DNA of 32,179 nucleotides from Chrysochromulina tobinii. Lineage: Eukaryota > Haptophyta > Prymnesiales > Chrysochromulinaceae. Below are positions 1,861 to 29,456 of the stretch, in pieces. The DNA lies in NCBI GenBank assembly GCA_001275005.1, contig JWZX01002060.1, positions 1 to 32,179 on the forward strand, given 5' to 3'. The notes under the pieces were generated by a model that did not search any database, was not told the DNA's origin, and was given only the letters and a program-made list of their open reading frames with translations. The translations under genes were made by a program, and so were the position numbers. Numbering within the stretch: the first letter of the stretch is position 1; the number at the start of each line of letters is the position of its first letter.

Positions 1861-3730
1861 ATGGACGGCGTGCGCCTCACGACGCCGACCATCTTGCAGA
1901 ACGTTCAAAACTACTCGTGGGGCTTTGGAGGCAGCCAGAGTCCGACACTGCCCGCCGAGGCCGCGCCTTCCTCCGTGCTCCTCGTCGTGGCTCAGGGCGG
2001 CCACCGCATCGCCTACCACCACCCCAACACGGGCGAGGCACTACCGGCGCCGCTAGCACGCGTGCCTGGCTTCGATCCCATCGTGCTCGCCGATCTGCTC
2101 ATGACCAAGGCGGGCCGATACGAGCAGCTGCTCGACCTGACGGTCGGCGACTGCCGCCTGATCGGCTGGCCCGTCGCGCTGACCCTCGAGCCGTTCATGC
2201 GCGCGAGCGCTCCTGCGAGCGGCAAGGGTGCACCGCTCAGCGCGCTCAATGTCGTCTTCACGCTGGCGGCGGCGGCCGCGCCGAGCGACGAGGCCCGATA
2301 CGAGCGCGTGGTGGCCGCCTGCAAGAGCGCGACTGAGCAGCTCGCGCTTGCGTTGCAGCGCGAGGAGGCATGCGGCGGCTTTGTGAGCCGGCACGTCTTT
2401 GGCGTCGAGGAGGCGGCACACGCGGGTGTGGGCGCCGTTGCGGGCGCCGATACGAGCGCACGGAGCACGATCGACGAAACTTGTATCTCAACTTGTATCT
2501 CGATGGGCAGCGGCTCGTGCGCGAGTGCGAGCGCGAACCTCACCGCTTTGGAAGGGGGCAGTGTCACGAGCGGGGGCGCGAGCGAGGCGCGTGGGCACGC
2601 GCCAGCCGCGCGCGCCCCGCTGCCATCTGGCTCTATCCCAGGCGTGCTCGAGACGGCGCTGCTCAGGACGGCGCTGCTCAGGACGGCGCTGCCATCTGGC
2701 TCTATCCCAGGCGTGCTCGAGGCAGCCTTCTATGCACTTCGAGAGGGACGACCCGTCACGTTACGTGTAGGCACGCGCGCCGAGGTCGCCGTGTGCACGC
2801 CGCCGCTGCCGACGCCGCGGCCGCGCCTCGCCGCGGCCCCGGGCGCCATGCCGCCGCCGCCAGCGCTCCGTCCGTATCTGACTCTCCTCCTTCTCGAAGG
2901 TGTGATCTCCCTTGATCTCCCTTGATTGGCCTGGATTGGCCAGGTGTAATCTCCTTTGATTGGCCTGGATTGGCCTGGACTGGCCAGGTGTGATCTCCTT
3001 TGATTGGCCTGGATTGGCCTCTGACCGTCCGTATCCTCCCCTCGCCCTTCTCGTAGAGCCCGAGGAGATCATTCAACAGCTGCCCGCCGATGCGTCTCCG
3101 TTACTCGTGCGTCTTGTGCACTGCGCCAACCCTCTTCGTTCGCTCGAGCAGCTCGCGGACGAGACGGGCATCGAGATGGGCGTGCTGTTTGGCATGGTGC
3201 AGCACCTTGAGGTGTGGGGCAAGGTGCGCTTGATCCACACGCTCACGCACGAGAGCGTTCTCTGCATCCACCCGAACGCGCCGCTCCGTCCACCGGCCGA
3301 TCTTGGGCGATTCGGTTCGGAGTTCGGATCGGAACCCGGCTACGCGGCTCTGCTCGCCCTCTTCACACATGGGCAGCGCTTCGGAGCGGTGCTACGGGCG
3401 GCGGAGGACTTGCAGGTGCCCAAGCGCCGTCTCGTGCAGATGACGCTCTACCTCTTGCAGCAGGACGCGCTTCGCGAGCTCCACACGTACGTGCACTGCG
3501 TTGGCGAGCCTTCCCCTCCCGACGAAGCCGATCGCTCCGCAGCCGGGGAGGCGGCGCGCGCGCGCTGGCGCCTCTTCCGGAGGCTCCGCCCGATGTTCCA
3601 CGGAGAGCACCACCTAGAGGAGATCATGTGGCAGGAGCGGCTGAGCCGCGACGTACTCATGGACCTGCTTCAGGCGTACGAGGAGCTTTTGGTGTGCGTC
3701 GTCACGCACCTGGATGTGACGGCACTGTGA
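1861..3730 (+). CDS. NPRL3: NPRL3, GATOR1 complex subunit
   Basis: CDS join(1861..2899,3057..3730), 570 residues. The splice is phase 1 and rebuilds a GAG codon. The N-terminal longin-like part has SSVLLVVAQGGHRIAYHHP, followed by GFDPIVLADLLM and DLTVGDCRLIGWPVALT, which match the NPRL3 signature (FdxxxLAxLL, FDLxixdlrFVGhPv). After the intron, LLLLEEPEEIIQQLPADASP, LEQLADETGI and HLEVWGKVRLIHTL match the C-terminal winged-helix region. The end (FHGEHHLEEIMWQERLSRD) is the highly conserved NPRL3 tail. In known systems NPRL3 joins NPRL2 and DEPDC5 on the lysosome or vacuole as a GAP for Rag GTPases, restraining TORC1 when amino acids are scarce. Residues about 200-300 are low-complexity and contain an in-frame 23-codon duplication (2619-2721). 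Confidence 0.92.
2619..2721 (+). repeat. In-frame 69-bp direct duplication in NPRL3
   Basis: A 34-bp block (2619-2652) is repeated exactly at 2688-2721, an offset of 69 bp or 23 codons. Both copies encode LPSGSIPGVLE. Between them the 15-mer ACGGCGCTGCTCAGG occurs twice in tandem. The reading frame is kept. The segment lies in the poorly conserved linker between the longin-like and C-terminal parts. Confidence 0.9.
2900..3056 (+). repeat. NPRL3 intron made of a 44-bp tandem repeat
   Basis: The donor context AGGTGTGATCTCC (2898-2910) recurs at 2942-2954 (one mismatch) and 2986-2998, a period of 44 bp. The rest of each unit is TTGATTGGCCTGGATTGGCC-like. Each unit therefore carries a potential 5' splice site. 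The last 32 nt of the intron (3025-3056) resemble the last 32 nt of exon 1 (2868-2899), both beginning CCGTCCGTATC and ending CTTCTCGNAG. Confidence 0.9.
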
Positions 3731-3995: not shown

Positions 3996-5787
3996 CTATT
4001 GAGAGCGCGCTCTCGGCGGCTCTTGCGCTCTCAACGCGAACAGTGACACGCAGCCGCAGCACAATGCGCTCGTCGTCACGATGGCAGCGCCGCAACTTGT
4101 CACATCCGCCTGCGCGCGAGAGCAGGGGCCACACTTGTAGATCGAGGAGCGCACGCGTTGGGGCAGAGGGCACAGGCGCGCTTGCGAGGCACCCAGGGAA
4201 GGGCAGTCACAGCAAGCGCTCGTAGCATGCTTTAGAACGCGAGCGTTTGAGCGCCATGTCGAGCGCACCAGGATGCCTAAGGCTATCGGCGCCATCAGTG
4301 AGCCAATGTCGCCTGAGGTGCGCGAGACGGCGTTCGCCTGGCCGCGCTGCGTGCGTGGGAGTACCTGATGAGGGAGGCAATCACACGATGAGGGAGGCAA
4401 TCACACGATGAGGGAGGCAATCACACGATGAGGGAGGCAATCACACGATGAGGGAGGCAATCACACGATGAGGTGGGAGTACCTCCGCTGTGAATGCCCC
4501 GAGTGCCGGCCCAATGACGGCTGATGAGAGGCTCGACAGCAGTAGGAGCGCGTAGAAGGCCTCGCGCGTATCGACGAACGCAAGGCACGCGAAGCTAATA
4601 TGAGAGAGCACGAGGCCTGGGATGATGAGGGCTTTTCGACCGGTACGTGCAGCGAGCCAACTGCCGAGCGGCATCCCCGCCTGCATGCAATGAGGGAGGC
4701 CATCAGAATGCAATCAGAGGCAATCAGAGGGATGTGCTCCGGCGAGGCCCACCACGGCGCTGATCCCCGTGAGCGAGAACATCGCCCCTAAGTCGGCTGG
4801 GCTCGCGCCCCAAGCCTCACGGGCGTGAAGCGTCAACACCACCATGAAGCACCCTTGGCCCAGGGAGGCGGAGGCGGCGAGGGCCGAGAGCGCTTGTACA
4901 TTGCTCGAGCGCAGCAACGGTAGCATCGCAGCAATTGCGCGCTGTACCGGTAGCGTGCGTTCGCTCAGCAAGGGCGAAGGGGCAGTGCCGCCGCCGCCGC
5001 CACCCACACCACCGTCGCTGCTGCCGGCACCGGGGCGCTGCTGCCGTAGCTGCAGCGTCTCGGGAAGCTGTGCGTAGCCGAGGGAGCATAGTCCAATGCC
5101 CACTCCCGCCAGGTAAAAGTTGTTACGAACCCCGTAGGCTTCCGCTAGGACACCACCGAGCATCGGTCCGGCCACCCAAACGCCGGAGAGCACGAAGCTC
5201 TGGAAGGCCATGAGCTGCGCACGGTGCTGTGGCGCACGGTCCGTCAGGTCCTGCATCATCGCCGACGAGCCCGACATTGAGCTGGCCGAGCCCGCGCCGA
5301 TGAGCAGCCGCATGCCGAGCACCGCGGGCAGACCGCTTGTCATCACAAGCCCGGTGCCGAACTGGCCCGCGGCGGTGATGAGCGTGCCCCAGCGCATCAA
5401 GGGCTTCCGACCCACCGTGTCCGCCAAGCGGCCGAGCGGCAGATTCACGGCGAGCCTGGCAAAGGCCGGAGCAGAGATGAGCAAGCCAGTGCCCGCAGCT
5501 CCGAGGCCCATCTCCGTCGCCAGCAGCGGGAACACAGGGACCACCTGCGCGACGCCAATGTTTAGCATCATTTGCGAGCCAACGAGGATGCCCACATCCC
5601 GACGGAGCGCCACGTCCTCCCATATCGAGCCTGACGAAGAGGCTGATTTCGAGCCTTCATCGGCCTGCGGCGGCGGCTGCCCAGACATGCTCCGGAGCCC
5701 GACGCGCACCGGAGAAAGATGCTGATTCGATCGACGGCAGCAGCGGCTCGAGGCCTTAAGGTGCGAGGAGCCCCGTCGCGCGAGCAT
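3996..5787 (-). CDS. Major facilitator superfamily transporter
   Basis: Four exons on the minus strand: 5787..4738, 4680..4483, 4364..4269 and 4109..3996, all phase 0, giving 485 residues. The MFS motif A is clear at residues 119-130 (GRLADTVGRKPL) and is repeated in the second half as GSWLAARTGRKALIIPG. RGQANAVSRTSGDIGSLMAP precedes the last helices, and joining GIL to ADVTSCGAAIVTTSALCCG restores the usual final transmembrane segment, which is why I prefer a third intron to reading through. The order resembles bacterial-type multidrug or sugar efflux MFS proteins; the substrate is unknown. The N-terminus (MLARRGSSHLKASSRCCRR) is Arg/Ser-rich, compatible with organelle targeting; an internal Met at residue 34 is an alternative start. 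A Gly-rich stretch sits in the central loop. Intron 1 appears to use a GC donor. Confidence 0.85.
4365..4482 (-). repeat. MFS intron 2: five 20-bp tandem units between 12-bp direct repeats
   Basis: On the + strand the unit GATGAGGGAGGCAATCACAC starts at 4367, 4387, 4407, 4427 and 4447, with a partial copy at 4467. The intron is 118 bp. The sequence GTGGGAGTACCT occurs perfectly at 4355-4366 and 4473-4484, exactly one intron length apart, spanning the 3' and 5' splice junctions. In the sense strand both junctions read AGGTACTCCCAC, so the first bases of the intron duplicate the first bases of the next exon. Confidence 0.95.
4681..4737 (-). other. MFS intron 1, 57-bp GC-AG intron
   Basis: Sense strand reads GCC GGA | GCACAT ... 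TTGCATGCAG | GCG GGG. Removing it in phase 0 yields VVGLAG-AGMPLGSW, the expected helix-to-motif-A transition. The only nearby GT donor would delete VVGLAG. The body has CTCTGATTGCC and CTGATGGCCTCCCTCAT, the same vocabulary as the HECT gene introns. Confidence 0.65.
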
Positions 5788-21828: not shown

Positions 21829-24800
21829 ATGCACGCAGCGCTGGCGCTTGCGAACGTCGCAGTCAACAACGACATCAACAAGGTCGCCATCGAAGGCCGC
21901 ATCACGCCGCTCGTCGCAGTTGCCGCATCAGGCACGGAGGAGCAAAAGGAGTACGCGGCGATGGCGCTTGCAAACATCGCAGTCAACGCCAACAACAAGG
22001 TCGCCATCCGCCGGGAAGGCGGCATCGCGCCGCTCGTCGCACTTGCCGCATCAGGCACGGAGAAGCAAAAGGAGTATGCAGCGATGGCGCTTGCATACCT
22101 CGCAGTCAACGCCAACAACAAGGTCGCCATCGCCGAGGCAGGCGGCATCGCGCCGCTCGTCGCACTTGCCGCCTTAGGCACGGAGAAGCAGAAAGAGAAC
22201 GCAGCGCTGGTGCTTGCAGACCTCGCAGCCGGCAACGCCAACAACAAGGTCGCCATCGCCGAGGCAGGCGGCATCGCGCCGCTCGTCGCACTTGCTGTAT
22301 CAGGCACGGAGAAGCAAAAGGAGAACGCAGCACGGGCTCTTGCGTACCTCACAGTCAACGCCAACAACCAGGTCGCCATCGCCGAGGCGGGCGGCATCGC
22401 GCCGCTTGTCGCACTTGCCGCATCAGGAATGGAGAAGCAAAAGGAGTACGCAGCGCGGGCGCTTGCAAACCTCACATTCGACCACGCCAACAACAAGGTC
22501 GTCATCGCGAAGTCGGGCGGCATCGCGCCGCTCGTCGCACTTGCCGCATCAGGCACGGAGAAGCAAAAGGAGTACGCAACGCAGGCGCTTGCAAACCTCG
22601 CAGTCAACGACAACAACCAGGTCGCCATCGCCGAGTTTAACGGCATCGCGCCGCTCGTCGCACTTGCCGATTCAGGCACGGAGGAGCAAAAGGAGTACGC
22701 AGCGCTGGCGCTTGCGAACCTCGCAGCCGGCAACGCCAACAACGAGGTCGCCATCGCCGAGGCGGGCGGCATCGCGCCGCTCGTCGCACTTGCCGCATCA
22801 GGCACGGAGAAGCAGAAGGAGAACGCAGCGCAGGCGCTTGCAGACCTCGCAGTCAACGACAACAACCAGGTCGCCATCGCCGAGGCGGGCGGCATCGCGC
22901 CGCTCGTCGCACTTGCCGCATCAGGAACGGAGGAGCAAAAGGAGAACGCAGCGCTGGCGCTTGCAAACCTCGCAGTCAACGACAACAACCAGGTCGCCAT
23001 CGCCGAGGCGGGCGGCATCGCGCCGCTCGTCGCACTTGCCGCATCAGGCACGGAGGAGCAAAAGGAGTACGCAGCGCTGGCGCTTGCAGGCCTCGCGGGC
23101 CTCGCAGGCCTCGCAGGCAACGCCAACAACAAGGTCGCCATCGCCGAGGCGGGCGGCATCGCGCCGCTCGTCGCACTTGCCGCATCAGGCACGGAGGAGC
23201 AAATGGAGTACGCAGCGATGGCGCTTGCAAACCTCGCAGTTAACGTCTACATCAAGTTCGCCATCGCCAAGGCGGGCGGCATCGCGCCGCTCGTCGCACT
23301 TGCCGCATCAGGCACGGAGAAGCAAATGGAGTACGCAGCGCTGGCGCTTGCAAACCTCGCAGTCAACGACAACAACCAGGTCGCCATCCCCGAGGCGGGC
23401 GGCATCGCGCCGCTCGTCGCACTTGCCGCATCAGGCACGGAGAAGCAAAAGGAGAACGCAGCGCTGGCGCTTGCAAACCTCGCATTCACCGCCAACAACC
23501 AGGTCGCCATCGCCGAGGCGGGCGGCATCGCGCCGCTCGTCGCACTTGCCGCATCAGGCACGGAGGAGCAAAGGGAGTACGCAGCGCTGGCGCTTGCGGG
23601 CCTCGCAGGCCTTGCAAGCCTCGCAGGCAACGCCAACAACAGCATCGCCATCGCCGAGGCGGGCGGCATCGCGCCGCTCGTCGCACTTGCCGCATCAGGC
23701 ACGGAGAAGCAAATGGAGTACGCAGCGCTGGCGCTTGCGAACCTCACATTCGACAACGCCAACAACAAAGTCGTCATCGTGAAGTCGGGCGGCATCGCGC
23801 CGCTCGTCGCACTTGCCGCATCAGGCACGGAGAAGCAGAAGGAACACGCAGCGATGGCGCTTGCAAACCTAGCATTCGGCAATGCCAACAACCAGGTCGC
23901 CATCCCCGAGGCAGGCGGTATCGCGACGCTTGTCACACTTGCCACCTCAGGCACGGAGGCGCAGAAGGAGAACGCAGCGCTGGCGCTTGCAAACCTCGCA
24001 GACGATGCCAACAATGATGTCGCCATCGCCGAGGCGGGCGGCATCGCGCCGCTCGTCGCACTTGCCGCATCAGGCACGGAGAAGCAAAAGGAGTATGCAT
24101 CACATGTGCTTCTGCACTTTCGATACAGCCGATCAGGCAGAGGCGCCGCCTCGGGCGTCATCACAGTTGACGCGCACGACGACGAGCATCTCTCGGACAA
24201 AGAGCCTGTCCCCGACGACAACATGCTCGAAGAGCTCGGACGACGTCTATGTGAGGCTGAGGCGTTGGCCCTTCAGCTGCAGATTCAGTTGGACTGCGAG
24301 CGGCAGAGTGCTCGGGAGGCATTAGAGCGTGAGCGGCAGAGTGCTCGGGAGGCATTAGAGCGTGAGCGGCAGAGTGCTCGGGAGGCAAGGGAGGCTTCCC
24401 TTGGGCGGCGGCTAATGGCTCTTGAGGCGCAAATCTCGCGCACCACGGAGCTGCTCCATCAGGTGGGCTCACCCTCTCCACGGACTGCCATTGATGACCT
24501 CTGATGACCTCTGATGACCTCTGATGACCTCTGATGACCTCTGATGACCTCTGATGACCTCTGATGGCCTCTGATGGCCTCTGATGGCCTCGGATGGCCT
24601 CGAATTGCCTATGTGTGCCTGGGATTGCCGCTGATGCGCCATCAGATGAAGCGCAAGGAGTTGTCCAAGCCGCTCACCCTGCAGCTGCGTCGGAGCTCCT
24701 TGGCTGCGGACTTGCTGTATGAGGCGGCGACCAAGCTGCAGCCGGCCCACATGCTCTTCGCCCACGTGCGCGTCGAATTCGGCCAAGAGGAGGGACGTGA

Positions 24801-27800
24801 CGAGGGCGCGCTCACCATCAACGCGTTCGGCTCGTTCCACACGTCCCTGTACACGACGCCCGCCACGGCGCGCTTCTGGCAGACCACGAGCTCGGGCAGG
24901 TGAGTGCCGGTATCTGATGACCGCTGATGACCACTGATGACCACCGATGACCACTGATGACCTCCCTCATTAGGTACGTACCGGTATCGGAGGCCAGCAT
25001 AGCGCACAGGCTGCCGCTCATGCTGCCTTTCCGCGAGGGGGACGTGATCAAAATCCGAGCGCGGGCGAGATGGATGGGGCGGAGGCGGTGGCGACGGCGA
25101 CGGCAGTGGTGATGGCACTGGCGGCGGCGGCGGCGGCGGCGGGGGGAGCAGCGACGGCACCACAGCTGTGAATGTGAATGTCGACGGCACCGACATCCGT
25201 GCCCACAGTCGGCAGCGTGGTCACCGCTCGTTGGAAGGCGCGAGGATCGAAATGGTTTGGAGCACGCGTGAAAACTATCAATGATGACGGCACCTTTGGG
25301 ATCATGTATGACGATGGCGACGAAGATCACAAGGTGAGCATATGATGACCTCTGGTGGCCTCTGATGGCCTCTGATGACCTCTGATGACCTCTGATGACC
25401 TCCGGTGGCCTCTGATGACCTCTGATTGCCTCGGATGACCTCTAATGGCCTCTGATGACCTCTAATGACCTCTGATGGCCTCCGATGACAGGTGACCAGA
25501 AACAACATCCGCGTGGGACACGAGATGGTCGCCGCCGCAGGCTCGGCTTCCGCCGCGCCACCCGCCAAACGTCAGCGGACGGGCGGCGCCGGGGCCTCCA
25601 CCGCCGCGGGTCGTGTCGACGGTGACGAGGGTGATCGAATGGCGTGCGATGCGGAGACGGTCTACCGGCTGTGCGGGCGAGTGCTTGCCAAGGCGCTCCT
25701 TCAGGTGGGCTGCCGCTGATGAGCACTGATGACATCCCTGATTGGCGCTGATGACCACTGATGACATCCCTGATTGGCGCTGATGACCACTGATGACATC
25801 CCTGATTGGCGCCGACTGTCACTGATGGCTCGATGTGATCGGTTGCAGGGATGCGACTGTTGCGTGGACGACCGGCTGCCGCTCTACGTGCTCGAGTACG
25901 CTGATGAAAGCTGATGACCATCCATGACCTCTGATGACCACAATGATGACCTCTGATAATCTCTGATGACCACGATGGTGACCACAATGGTTACCTCAGA
26001 TGACCACCAATGGTGACCTCTGATAATCTCTGATGACCCCTGATGACCTCCCTCATCAGGTACCTCGCCACCGACAACTGCACGTCGCTCAACGCGCTCG
26101 ACACGGCGCTCGAGCAGCTGCGCGCGGTGGACGCGGCGCATGCAACCTTCCTCGAGAGGATCCACACCGACGGCGTCGCGCGCACCACTGCCGCCATCAC
26201 CGGCGAGCCGCTACGTACGTGCGACCTCTACACGCTGTACTCGGAGTTGGGCGTGGCCTGCCCAACTTGCACTGCGGCGACGCAGCCTATGCAAAGGTTG
26301 ATCTGCCCCCTCCTCGACCCGGCCACACCCGTCCCACCCCAGCTCCTGCTCGATGTGATCCATTACACGCTGGTAGGCAGGTGAGGGCTGCCACTGATTG
26401 CCACTGAAAGCATCCCTGAAGGCCGTTGATTACCATTGATGGCACTGATGTGATCTCTGAGTGCCAGCAATTGGCACTGATGACCGATGTGATCCTTAAC
26501 ACTGATGACCGATGTGATCCGTCACACGATGTGAGCAACGGTCGTTGATTACCACTGATGACCGATGTGATCCGTTACACGATGTGGGCAGCCGGCGTGC
26601 GCATCTGACGGCGCTCAAGAACGGCTTCCAGGGCGCCGACCAGCTCGAGGGTGTGAATTCACAGTCCTCGTTTGGCTTCTCGATGTACGACTTCTCAGGC
26701 GAGTGGCTGATTGCCACTGATGGCCACTGATGGCCTCTGATGGCCTCTGATGGCCTCTGATGGCCTCTGATGGCCACTGATTGAAACTGATTATACTACT
26801 GGTTGCCACTGATGCTTCTCGACACCACAGCGGCCCTCGCGACGCTCGCTCCGGACGAGATCGCACTGCGGCTGCGTGGCCGGGCGGTTGGATCTGCCGA
26901 CGAGCTCGCGGGTCTACTCCGCTACGAGATGCACCCGACGACTCCCGTGGCCGCGGACGTGTTTGATTGCATGTGCGAGTGGTTCAGTGCGCTCATCCGA
27001 AAGTTCGACTCGGAGCAGCTCGCGACTTTTTTGAGCTTTGCGACGGCGAGGCGGAACTTCCGCTCCGCGCCGGACGAGGCGCGTGCCTTTTGATGACCTC
27101 TGATGACCTTCCGATGACCTTCCGATGACCTTCTGTGATGACCGCTGATGACCTCTGATGACTCCTGATGGTGATGGATTGCCCCCCTCATCAGGAGCGT
27201 GATGCTGTCTTCGTGTGCATGTACCCGGACGAGAAGGCACGCGCCCCCTTAGCGCTCGACCAGGTGCGGCTCACCCTAAGCCTGTTTGAAGACGAAGCCC
27301 TCTTGACGAAGCCCTCTTCACGAAACCCTCTTGAATCCTAAGCTCCACCCTAATCCTAATCCTAAGCCTACCCCGACCTTAATCCCCGACCCCTACCCTC
27401 ACCACAATCAGGTGCGGCTGGGCGCGAATGCCGACGCGCTCACCGCGTCCACGTGCAGCCGTCGTGTCTACTGTCCGTGGCGCCCGGGGATGGACTCGAG
27501 GGCGCTCGAGCACACGGTGAGGCCTTCCACCTCCACCTTCTCTGCCGTTGCTCTCACCGCCACCGCTCTCGCCCCCGTTCTCACCGGCACCGCCGACGTT
27601 TCCTCCGTCGCTACCCTCACCTTCGCCACATCGCCAATAGCGTTCCACAGCTGATGGCCTCTGATGACCACTCGGAGGACCTCTCTGAGGACCTCTCTGA
27701 GGACCTCTCTGAGGACCTCTCTGAGGACCTCTCTGAGGACCTCTCTGAGGACCTCCGTGATGACCTCAGACTGATGACCTCTCTGATGACCAACCTCATC

Positions 27801-27877
27801 AGGTGCTGCACACGCTCGAGATCTTTGCCAACGAAGAGAGGCACACCAAGGGAGGCGCTGCGTTTGGCTACGAGTGA
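21829..27877 (+). CDS. ARM-repeat HECT E3 ubiquitin ligase with Tudor-like insert
   Basis: Twelve exons with consistent phases: join(21829..24462, 24646..24899, 24974..25087, 25216..25333, 25492..25704, 25849..25895, 26060..26380, 26592..26698, 26831..27078, 27195..27263, 27412..27516, 27803..27877), about 1434 residues. Exon 1 holds about 17 full armadillo repeats of 41-42 residues (PLVALAASGTEEQKEYAALA), then a coiled coil with three ERQSAREAL copies. The HECT N-lobe starts LTLQLRRSSLAADLL (about 886), with VRVEFGQEEGRDEGAL, YRLCGRVLAKALLQ and HYTLVGSRRAHLTALKNGFQ. The C-lobe has LAPDEIALRLRG, and the catalytic cysteine is in TASTCSRRVYCP (residue about 1390, codon 27454-27456), 44 residues from the end GFGYE-like tail. 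Exon 4 carries a Tudor/Agenet-like module inside the N-lobe. HECT ligases accept ubiquitin on this cysteine and pass it to substrates; ARM repeats would bind substrate. The start and the exon 3/4 junction (donor 25088, 25106 or 25109) are uncertain. Confidence 0.88.
21910..24100 (+). repeat. Tandem ARM-repeat array, about 123-126 bp per unit
   Basis: About 17 full units plus a partial one, highly similar at the nucleotide level (GGCGGCATCGCGCCGCTCGTCGC recurs in nearly every unit, written here as the core GGCATCGCGCCGCTCGT). Two units (near 23085 and 23595) carry an extra LAGLAGLAG-type expansion of CTCGCAGGC. The uniformity suggests recent unit duplication or gene conversion. Confidence 0.95.
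24463..24645 (+). repeat. HECT intron 1: exact 10-bp tandem array
   Basis: GT-AG, phase 0. From about 24491 the unit CTGATGACCT repeats with a strict 10-bp period, drifting to CTGATGGCCT, CGGATGGCCT and CGAATTGCCT over about 14 units. The upstream exon ends CCATCAG and the intron also ends CCATCAG. Confidence 0.95.
24900..24973 (+). repeat. HECT intron 2 with junction duplication and 3' hairpin
   Basis: A 74-bp intron of TGATGACC repeats. Its 5' junction AGGTGAGTGCCGGTATC (24898-24914) and 3' junction AGGTACGTACCGGTATC (24972-24988) match at 14 of 17 positions. The last 20 nt read CTGATGACCTCCCTCATTAG. Confidence 0.9.
25334..25491 (+). repeat. HECT intron 4: TGATGACCTC array
   Basis: A 158-bp GT-AG intron, phase 0, almost entirely 10-bp units of CTGATGACCT and CTGATGGCCT. 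The junctions AAGGTGAGCA and CAGGTGACCA are similar. Confidence 0.9.
25705..25848 (+). repeat. HECT intron 5: 32-bp tandem repeat
   Basis: The 32-bp unit starting GACATCCCTGATTGGCGCTG begins at 25731, 25763 and 25795. It includes CTGATGACCACTGATGA, linking it to the other introns. Splicing is phase 0 (ALLQ-GCDC). Confidence 0.9.
25896..26059 (+). repeat. HECT intron 6: TGATGACC/TGATAATC array with 3' hairpin
   Basis: The junction rebuilds a GAG codon (VLE-YLATDN). Units of TGATGACCTC alternate with ATGGTGACCA and TGATAATCTC. The end CTGATGACCTCCCTCATCAG (26040-26059) has a perfect 7-bp stem (CTGATGA/TCATCAG) with a 6-nt loop. Confidence 0.9.
26381..26591 (+). repeat. HECT intron 7 containing copies of the upstream exon end
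   Basis: Exon 7 ends CGATGTGATCCATTACACGC plus TGGTAGGCAG (26351-26380). The intron ends CGATGTGATCCGTTACACGA plus TGTGGGCAG (26563-26591). Further partial copies of GATGTGATCC lie near 26490 and 26512. Splicing is phase 2 (LVG-S-RRAHL). Confidence 0.93.
26699..26830 (+). repeat. HECT intron 8: GC-AG intron with TGATGGCCTC array
   Basis: The donor is CTCAG|GCGAGT. Exon 8 ends in phase 1 and exon 9 (CG GCC CTC) enters in phase 1, giving DFS-AALATLAPDE. The body is 10-bp CTGATGGCCT units. Confidence 0.85.
27079..27194 (+). repeat. HECT intron 9: probable GC-AG intron
   Basis: Only the donor GAG|GCGCGTGCC keeps the frame (phase 0) into GAG CGT GAT; the nearby GT donor would be phase 1. The body has TGATGACCTTCCGATGACC units, and the 3' end is CCCCTCATCAG. 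Confidence 0.75.
27264..27411 (+). repeat. HECT intron 10 with 11-bp direct repeats and telomere-like tract
   Basis: CAGGTGCGGCT occurs exactly at 27261-27271 and 27409-27419, spanning the two splice junctions. The body lacks TGATGACC and instead has GAAGCCCTCTTGAC-like repeats followed by CACCCTAATCCTAATCCTAA. Confidence 0.95.
27517..27802 (+). repeat. HECT intron 11 with a 12-bp tandem array
   Basis: GAGGACCTCTCT repeats with a 12-bp period from 27675 to 27758 (six exact copies plus a variant). It is flanked by TGATGACC units, and the intron ends CTGATGACCAACCTCATCAG (27783-27802). Confidence 0.93.
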
Positions 27878-28309
27878 GGTCGGAAGATGGGACACACTGC
27901 CAAGGACTTGTTGTAGTGAATGTAGACAGTGGCCGATCGGGAAAAATGGTTGCGCCTTTGCAGCCTTGCTTGGATACAGGCTGGAGAGAACGACACGCTG
28001 AAATCGAGTTGGTGTTCAGATGAGAGATCGAGTGTTATGAATCGAGTTTTGTTTTGCTCACTGATCGGATTGTTCAATCAAGAAGGCTACCGTGTAAGAC
28101 TGAGTGGCGGCGGCAAGAAAGCTCACATCAAAACTTAGTTGATTTCATCGTTGCAACGTTCTTCTGTTTCAATTGGACCAATTGCATGCACAACACGTCG
28201 ACCAAGTTTTGTGAAGAAATGCCAAGGCCAAGTGCGCTTCAGCTCCTCGTCGCTGGAGCCAGTTTTGGCTTTTGCGATCGAGCAATCCATTGCTCGCGCT
28301 CGACCGCAC
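27878..28309. other. Intergenic/5' region (about 430 bp)
   Basis: Between the HECT stop and the methyltransferase ATG. It is noticeably lower in GC than the genes. The methyltransferase frame is open from about 28139 without an ATG. No RNA gene or repeat is recognised. Confidence 0.5.
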
Positions 28310-29456
28310 ATGCACCAGGGAGACTTTCTGCGCATCATGGAGGAGTCCTTTTCAGCCCATGGCTGCACAAAGCAACATCCGAGCGGCGGCCAGTGCAAAC
28401 GCTACCTCGGCACGCTGCACATGCTCGAGCCATATCTGAGGCCCAACATGCACGTACTCGACGTCGGCGCCAACGATCAAATGATGCAGCGTTTGTTCGA
28501 CCACTACGAGCTGGGCATCACCGTAGAGAATCTTGTGGGGGACATTCGATATCCGTGGAGAGTGAAGCGAGACCGGTACAATTTGGTCATCTCGATGGAA
28601 GTGATCGAGCACCTCAAAGACCGGCCGATTGCTGGCCTGAACGAGCTGCAACTCGCGATCGCCTTCCACTACATCGGCATGTGGAACTTTTTCATCGAGG
28701 CGCGCAATCTGCTGCAGGCGGAAGACCTCCTGCTGGTGACCACGCCCAATGCTGGCTCCTACCTCGCACTGTACAATCTGATGGCGCACCAGTCGCCCGA
28801 CATGTACTACATCCACGTGCGCGAGCTCTCGATGCTCGAGCTGATCAGCTTGCACGAGGGCGCGGGCTTCAAGATCCTCCGCAAAGAGGCCAGGTACGCT
28901 AATCGCCACTGATGGCCTCTGATGGCCTCTCTGATGGCCTCTGATGGCCTCATACGCCTCTGACGGCCTCCGTTGACCCCTGATGGCCTCCCTCATCAGG
29001 TACTTCTTTGCCCCGAGTCTCGAGGGAGGGCACTTTGCGCGCAAGGCGGCGGCATTCTTCGACGACGCGCGTAGGCATCTCGACTCGTCAGCGCGCCGTC
29101 GGCACAGCAGCGCGCAGCTGATCAACTTCAGTGCCTATCGAGGGGACGACCTTCTCTTCCTTTCCACACCGTCCTCTCGGCCGCCCAAGCATCGCCTCGA
29201 CATGGCACCAAAACCAAAGATGGGAAACACTAGCGTGGTGCACGTCATCTGCCGTGCTGATGAGCCTGGTGGTGGAAGCAACGCACGCGAGCAGCGTCAA
29301 CCCTCATCCTCCGCACCGAGCATGCAAACCACGCTCCGTCAGCAGCGCCCAACGCAGCGCCTTGCAGCTCCACCGTGGGGCGGCTCGCTTCGACCTCTTG
29401 AAGACTGTGCTCTTTCGTGGCGGCTGGGCTGGGCCTTTGCACGTTTTGCCCACTGA
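28310..29456 (+). CDS. Class I SAM-dependent methyltransferase
   Basis: CDS join(28310..28893,29000..29456), 346 residues, phase-2 splice giving KEA-R-YFFAPS. The SAM-binding motif I is HVLDVGAND (residues 48-56). It is followed by NLVISMEVIEHLKD (91-104), LLVTTPNAGSYLAL (141-154) and HVRELSMLELISLHEGAGFK, the usual order of Methyltransf_23-like enzymes acting on small molecules or glycans. The substrate is unknown. The C-terminal 110 residues after the intron are low-complexity and may be partly non-homologous. The first in-frame ATG is 28310, just upstream of the catalytic domain, so an upstream exon could add a targeting sequence. The intron belongs to the same family as those in the HECT gene. 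Confidence 0.8.
28894..28999 (+). repeat. Methyltransferase intron: TGATGGCCTC array with shared 3' end
   Basis: A 106-bp GT-AG intron of CTGATGGCCT units. It ends CTGATGGCCTCCCTCATCAG (28980-28999), one base different from HECT intron 6. The junctions CAGGTACGCT and CAGGTACTTC share CAGGTAC. Confidence 0.93.

Follow-up and report, generated by a model that had tools for sequence, protein, structure and literature searches.

The question raised by this locus is how introns of unrelated genes came to be filled with the same short tandem repeats. The stretch analysed, referred to below as the window, is contig JWZX01002060.1 (32,179 nucleotides; contig C986 in this work) of the Chrysochromulina tobinii assembly GCA_001275005.1, which holds 53.15 Mb in 2,253 contigs, and the elements in question are arrays built on the word TGATGRCC that fill predicted introns of a HECT gene and a methyltransferase gene, together with related arrays in a transporter gene. 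The arrays are common to unrelated genes, direct repeats of variable length flank many of them, they lie in sense orientation, reading frames are restored by their removal and a 3' module recurs at their ends. The reading proposed here is that TGATGRCC arrays are the bodies of predicted introner-like spliceosomal introns, whose cassette was likely inserted at staggered two-strand breaks, and to this reading we would assign an even chance. The predicted introns of the window are the following:

24463..24645, plus strand: HECT intron 1, GT-AG; array of TGATGACCTC and TGATGGCCTC with 10 TGATGRCC words; ends in CATCAG; flanking repeat of about 7 bp (CCATCAG, by eye).
24900..24973, plus strand: HECT intron 2, GT-AG; 4-word array; ends in CCTCCCTCATTAG.
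25334..25491, plus strand: HECT intron 3, GT-AG; 8 words.
25705..25848, plus strand: HECT intron 4, GT-AG; compound units of 32 bp (CGCTGATGACCACTGATGACATCCCTGATTGG).
25896..26059, plus strand: HECT intron 5, GT-AG; ends in CTGATGACCTCCCTCATCAG; the intron end reads MTSLIR in database protein P0108.
26381..26591, plus strand: HECT intron 6, GT-AG; units of 25 bp, in which TGATGACC is mixed with the exon word CGATGTGATCC.
26699..26830, plus strand: HECT intron 7, GC-AG; 6 words (TGATGGCCTC).
27079..27194, plus strand: HECT intron 8, GC-AG; 4 words; ends in CCCCCTCATCAG.
27264..27411, plus strand: HECT intron 9, GT-AG; zero TGATG words, CCTAA-rich; CAGGTGCGGCT (11 bp) on either side.
27517..27802, plus strand: HECT intron 10, GT-AG; 12-bp CTCTGAGGACCT array with 5 TGATGRCC words; ends in CCTCATCAG.
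28894..28999, plus strand: methyltransferase intron, GT-AG; 5 words; ends in CTGATGGCCTCCCTCATCAG.
4365..4482, minus strand: transporter intron A, GT-AG; five units of 20 bp (GTGTGATTGCCTCCCTCATC), enclosed by two copies of AGGTACTCCCAC (12 bp).
4681..4752, minus strand: transporter intron B, GT-AG; CTGATTGC and CTGATGGCC words; ends in GCATGCAG; placement set by database protein P0111.

The arrays have a period of about 10 bp, with units TGATGACCTC, TGATGGCCTC and CTGATGACCA as well as longer compounds; between 24492 and 28990 they are built at this period on TGATGACC or TGATGGCC, and 20-bp units with TGATTGCC occupy 4367-4473 of the minus strand. The first-pass annotation had described at least eight HECT introns, the methyltransferase intron and two transporter introns as made of TGATGRCC units. 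At least two such words were found in nine of the ten modelled HECT introns and the methyltransferase intron (5 words, 28894..28999) is array-filled too, as claimed; both transporter introns are filled with related repeat units, these being chiefly TGATTGCC units and not a strict TGATGRCC array. The range of 24463..28999 given for the family does contain arrays at the places named and omits the transporter introns at 4365-4482 and 4681-4752. Within the window, the claim that the word is nearly missing outside introns is borne out, since 53 of its 56 plus-strand occurrences lie inside the 11 introns listed on that strand (1,722 bp), the remaining three being at 1209, 1566 and 29457, and the word is not equally common outside introns there. 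On the minus strand there are four occurrences, one of them (4698) within a transporter intron.

A search of the whole assembly, proposed along with those claims, was performed with the strict three-unit pattern TGATGRCCNCTGATGRCCNCTGATG and returned 1730 + 1717 = 3,447 exact matches, as compared with 0 + 0 for the reversed-pattern control. Consequently, chance is excluded as a source of the arrays. Their vocabulary is broader than TGATGRCC and includes TGATTGCC, TGAGGACC and TGATTACC. In six contigs picked by number alone (L045-L050, 60 kb) TGATGRCC occurs as 9 single words and never as an array, the one cluster among them that passes the word count (L047) being a chance run of GATGATGATG; the near lack of the word in these contigs suggests that array introns are concentrated in some contigs or that the assembly is mixed. 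Four HSP90 genes in the assembly are consistent with one eukaryote. The array pattern gave 0 matches in the viral_contigs collection, from which records near this genome are possibly excluded, and a search of it confirmed no relative of the HECT protein; a viral source was rejected on these grounds.

Flanking direct repeats were searched for in the window and in 32 other loci, at each array-word cluster whose flanks were long enough; this gave 101 clusters from 28 of the 33 sources. Array words were masked, the upstream flank was aligned without gaps to the downstream one, the best match was scored against a threshold of 12, and 2,836 flank pairs from different sources served as control. A score of at least 12 was reached in 45 of the 101 clusters as compared with 0.81% of the mismatched pairs, and a score of at least 20 in 19 clusters as compared with 0.04%; unmasked, 54 clusters reached at least 11, as did 7.1% of mismatched pairs. 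The repeats measure 12-47 bp (median 20), a range whose lower bound is set by the threshold, shorter repeats being uncounted. AG|GT or AG|GC was found in 34 of the 45 repeat-bearing clusters: 16 have it at the left edge of the repeat, 9 at the right edge and 9 within it. Wherever the junction lies in such a repeat, removal of one copy together with the array gives an identical mRNA. At L043 8444-8541, 34 identical bases stand on both sides, and on the minus strand of L039 CTGCTCTGCCTGAGCCTCGACCAG does so, with GT coming from the insert and AG from the repeat. A dinucleotide count at the repeat edges gave 31 AG|GT at offset 0-2 versus 0-15 for twelve other pairs; the enrichment is only moderate, as the count pools the two strands and includes chance repeats, and the mismatched-flank control was relied on in its place. 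In the window, a separate search found AGGTACTCCCAC (12 bp) at transporter intron A and CAGGTGCGGCT (11 bp) at HECT intron 9, and some window introns show short repeats only. By eye, GTGAGTGCCGGTAT at the start of HECT intron 2 resembles GTACGTACCGGTAT at the exon start, and at HECT intron 6 a 19-bp repeat was found at 26351 and 26563, the aligned 19 bp containing no AG|GT and an AG following further on.

At three places (L060 minus strand 1405-1740, L043 7811-7982 and L057 1673-1910) an exon piece and its array are tandemly repeated as a whole, as expected from unequal exchange between repeats.

The effect of the inserts on reading frames was assessed in 52 repeat-bearing cases (unmasked score of at least 11, repeats made by the arrays themselves dropped) with a codon model trained on long open reading frames of the same loci. 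Open frames numbered 0 with the insert and 26 without it. Both flanks scored best in sense in 31 of the 52 cases, 22 of which were frame-consistent, and where both flanks scored at least 0.1 a single frame was kept in 14 of 15 by manual row count. The clearest single case is L043, where removal of five introns leaves 908 codons with 0 stops and their retention gives 32-38 stops per frame. Orientation was considered for 99 clusters, of which 39 were uncalled; the 60 with callable coding flanks comprise 58 in sense, 1 antisense and 1 mixed.

The 3' ends analysed are 63 distinct sequences of the CATCAG or CATTAG type, four of an original 67 having been dropped for sharing the same downstream bases. 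Their consensus is CTGATTGCCTCCCTCATCAG, with A at position -17 in 60 of 63, and the exon that follows begins with GT in 52, GC in 5, GA in 4 and GG in 2, the regular expression that defines the module partly imposing the TGAT and CATCAG letters and wholly imposing the first exon G. The module pattern TGATKRCCTCCCTCATCAGGT has 822 exact matches in the genome and 0 in the control. Similarity between modules is slightly higher within one contig and strand than otherwise (0.795 versus 0.738; 14 of 2,000 permutations), most clearly on C90, where TGATTGCACTC is present in all five listed modules. CTGAT fits the branch-site consensus, and the CTGAT of each array unit may accordingly be read, from its letters, as a branch-site-like word; array expansion would then not harm splicing.

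Long direct repeats of variable length enclose many insertions, and for this reason the 5' end of the intron is often an exon copy. The sequence shared between introns does not extend to both intron ends: the 3' end is often a conserved module, the 5' part often a local copy of the exon. The introner-like reading of the first-pass annotation is partly supported: unrelated genes do share intron sequence and the sense orientation (58 of 60) agrees with it, and the part that did not stand is the anatomy, in which sharing does not extend to both intron ends and long repeats flank many of the inserts. The idea was mostly right and the anatomy is different.

A second, unrelated cassette family was found to show long direct repeats as well. 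It consists of GCATGCAAGTGCTCACCACGGCGC, a free stretch and CCCCACAG, and no copy of it was found in the window. Its carriers are:

L007, L039, L040, L041, L042, L052, L061 and L067-L070: second-family cassette, long direct repeats.

The full pattern has 229 exact matches (control 0), and the 22-base core with at most 3 mismatches has 2,377 genome copies (control 1). A direct repeat flanks 14 of the 16 readable copies versus 0 of 240 mismatched pairs; in the 14, the aligned blocks measure 16-43 bp, and introns of 68-99 bp are predicted. Only 5 of the 14 have a stretch before the cassette whose length is divisible by three, which counts against a coding role of the first exon copy. Frames agree in 5 of 13 tested copies, many upstream flanks being non-coding-like or holding other introns, so that the frame test alone gives this family no support.

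The host genes were compared with protein families and database proteins. Removal of the ten HECT introns (eight GT-AG, two GC-AG) yields a protein whose second part matches Pfam HECT at 8.9e-7 and whose first part had no Pfam match. This model is incomplete, with a frame change at about 25050-25210, near which at least one further intron, one without TGATG words, is probably missing. The transporter matches MFS_1 at 5.3e-41, its best named match being from Prymnesium parvum (57%), the methyltransferase matches Methyltransf_23 at 3.7e-6, and the named matches of the dynamin lie at about 32-35%. Two database proteins, P0111 (98% across the full query) and P0112 (95%), are continuous across both transporter introns, both reading AEVLPRTQRG at the site of intron A, as predicted, and GISAV/AGMP at that of intron B. 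P0109 is continuous across the sites of HECT introns 3-10 and P0110 across those of introns 1-5 (introns 1 and 2 by eye). P0108 starts with MTSLIR before YLATDNC, which is what ATGACCTCCCTCATCAGG at the intron 5 end encodes, and shows no break across sites 6-10. P0110 ends with YSLMTTDDH, a reading of the array ATGACCACTGATGACCACTGA, at a site where the window has no intron. In their overlap P0108 and P0110 are alike at 54 of 59 residues, and their array ends fall at different HECT sites; either relatives differ in which of these introns they have, or these are transcripts in which a single intron was retained.

Directly 5' of the HECT exons, at 21833-24099, lie about 18 tandem coding repeats of 123 bp, which are ARM-like as read from their translation. 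Two other repeat-filled segments of the window are probably introns of the same build: 537-637, with 10-bp TTCGCACTCA units and a 20-bp direct repeat, and 2868-3057, with 44-bp TGATTGGCC-type units and an 11-bp direct repeat.

A route by which such introns could be created can be outlined. A cassette, often with a ready-made 3' splice signal (CTGATTGCCTCCCTCATCAG), would enter an exon at a staggered two-strand break, the ends of which would be filled in on both sides, so that an exon piece of about 12-47 bp would come to flank the insert twice. The filler may be a copy of an existing intron. The 5' splice site would often be supplied by the exon copy, and the insert would be an intron immediately if GT opens the first copy or AG|GT is present in the repeat. 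Splicing would select which insertions persist, and the 10-bp units could afterwards multiply by slippage. The general form of this proposal, in which integration of a cassette carrying only the 3' signal goes along with duplication of about 12-60 bp of exon, the host exon becomes the initial half of the intron and supplies its 5' splice site, and at least two unrelated cassettes share the route, is held tentatively, at somewhat below an even chance. The use of the same integration route by two unrelated cassettes would point to host machinery and not to a transposase. On this view one of the cassettes would have expanded into 10-bp arrays across the genome, a type of sequence removed as low-complexity from the earlier survey (PMC9860276). 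The variable repeat length, the two unrelated cassettes and the exon words in the array of HECT intron 6 are better fitted by the filling of staggered breaks than by an enzyme of fixed stagger. In mouse cells, breaks with 46-nt overhangs lead to tandem duplications (PMC5730883).

Several observations weigh against this. Repeat scores below 12 were obtained in 56 of the 101 clusters, AG|GT or AG|GC was not found by the script in 11 of the 45 repeat-bearing ones, and no more than 2 of the 11 window clusters pass, of which one (26635/26896) is off the intron edges. Most loci were picked for holding arrays, and the 101 clusters include the chance cluster L047. Array units from one contig resemble each other in composition only weakly more than other units do (19 of 1,000 permutations). 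Neither a donor sequence of the insertions nor an enzyme was identified, no transposase search having been made. The sequences of P0108-P0112 would fit splicing and presence/absence alike; the arrays would be introns as far as DNA and protein comparison can tell, and their splicing is what we infer from these.

Among other explanations, the one that survives best, although we consider it unlikely, is a conventional introner, that is a non-autonomous DNA transposon with an unusually long and ragged target site duplication (TSD) and secondary tandem growth, the CTGATGA start and TCATCAG end being its short inverted ends. Copies in the thousands, a fixed 3' end and the fixed ends of the second family agree with such an element, as does a 5' splice site derived from duplicated target, which the available text of PMC9860276 describes for introners with TSDs. 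The repeats of 12-47 bp are, however, unlike short fixed TSDs, an unrelated cassette shows the same lengths and the start of the array varies.

Less probable still is a tandem duplication of an exon piece holding AG|GT, as in the Rogers model and the amphioxus mirages, followed by growth of the array within the intron so formed and by its homogenisation between genes. Such a history would account for the flanking exon copies, which hold AG|GT internally or have it at an edge (AG|GT or AG|GC in 34 of 45), for the tandem units of exon piece and array in L060, L043 and L057, and for the exon words within the array of HECT intron 6. It does not account, on the other hand, for the recurrence of a single module and a single word across unrelated genes or for the fixed ends of a second cassette, and between the exon copies, where the model expects no foreign insert, a shared array or cassette is found. 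Minisatellite growth in old introns, with chance or composition making the introns of different genes alike and no mobility involved, is very improbable, since the 10-bp periodicity, the highly variable unit and the different repeat words of other window introns (574-610, 2898-3020) that speak for it are set against sense orientation in 58 of 60, a reversed-pattern control of zero, exon repeats beside the arrays and a single 3' module.

The staggered-break reading can be placed among known systems as these are described in the available portions of the cited papers. The introners surveyed by Gozashti et al. 2022 (PMC9860276), like the present introns, show sequence common to unrelated genes, thousands of copies and GC donors, and one of their arrangements, with the 5' splice site from duplicated target and the 3' site in the element, is that seen here. 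Their TSDs are 3-9 bp and their bodies single-copy, whereas here repeats of 12-47 bp and tandem arrays occur, in agreement with the first-pass statement that the tandem build is unlike the usual introner; the word "tandem" is absent from the main text of that paper. Of the features by which introners are recognised there, similar sequence in unrelated genes is present in the HECT, methyltransferase and transporter genes and in clusters of 27 other loci, and similarity to both intron ends is not found, the 5' part being often an exon copy. The Chrysochromulina introners of the same survey share a haptophyte host, as is likely here, but have a 4-bp TSD, carry the 5' splice site and co-opt the 3' site, which is the reverse of the commonest (left-edge) arrangement here. 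The staggered-break neointrons of Daphnia (PMC4202315) have repeats of 4-12 bp with no shared cassette family described in the portion available, as against 12-47 bp here in 45 of 101 clusters. The Rogers model and the amphioxus mirages (PMC3087553) resemble the present case in their duplicated, minisatellite-like pieces of exon-intron border, proposed as a source of introns via AG/GT; unlike here, sharing of sequence between unrelated genes is not described in the text available. Among the matches listed in the literature search, which covered titles and abstract openings and few subscription papers, none concerned repeat-array introners or introner repeats longer than 9 bp. The flanking exon duplications set these introns apart from described introners.

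The survey of PMC9860276, as described in its available text, covered 3,325 genomes, and repetitive low-complexity families were removed from it by hand. Such a filter would exclude arrays of about 10 bp; it is a choice of the survey and not a biological property, and a survey that drops low-complexity families would therefore miss introns of this kind, which constitutes a blind spot.

The large-scale origin of introns is an old question, to which transposon insertion and break repair have so far been separate answers. In this one genome, very many copies combine a mobile-looking shared sequence with exon duplications long enough for the event to be read directly. If the proposed route is true, the two halves of such an intron would differ in origin, and insertions could be dated from a comparison of the two repeat copies, the one in the intron being free and the one in the exon constrained.

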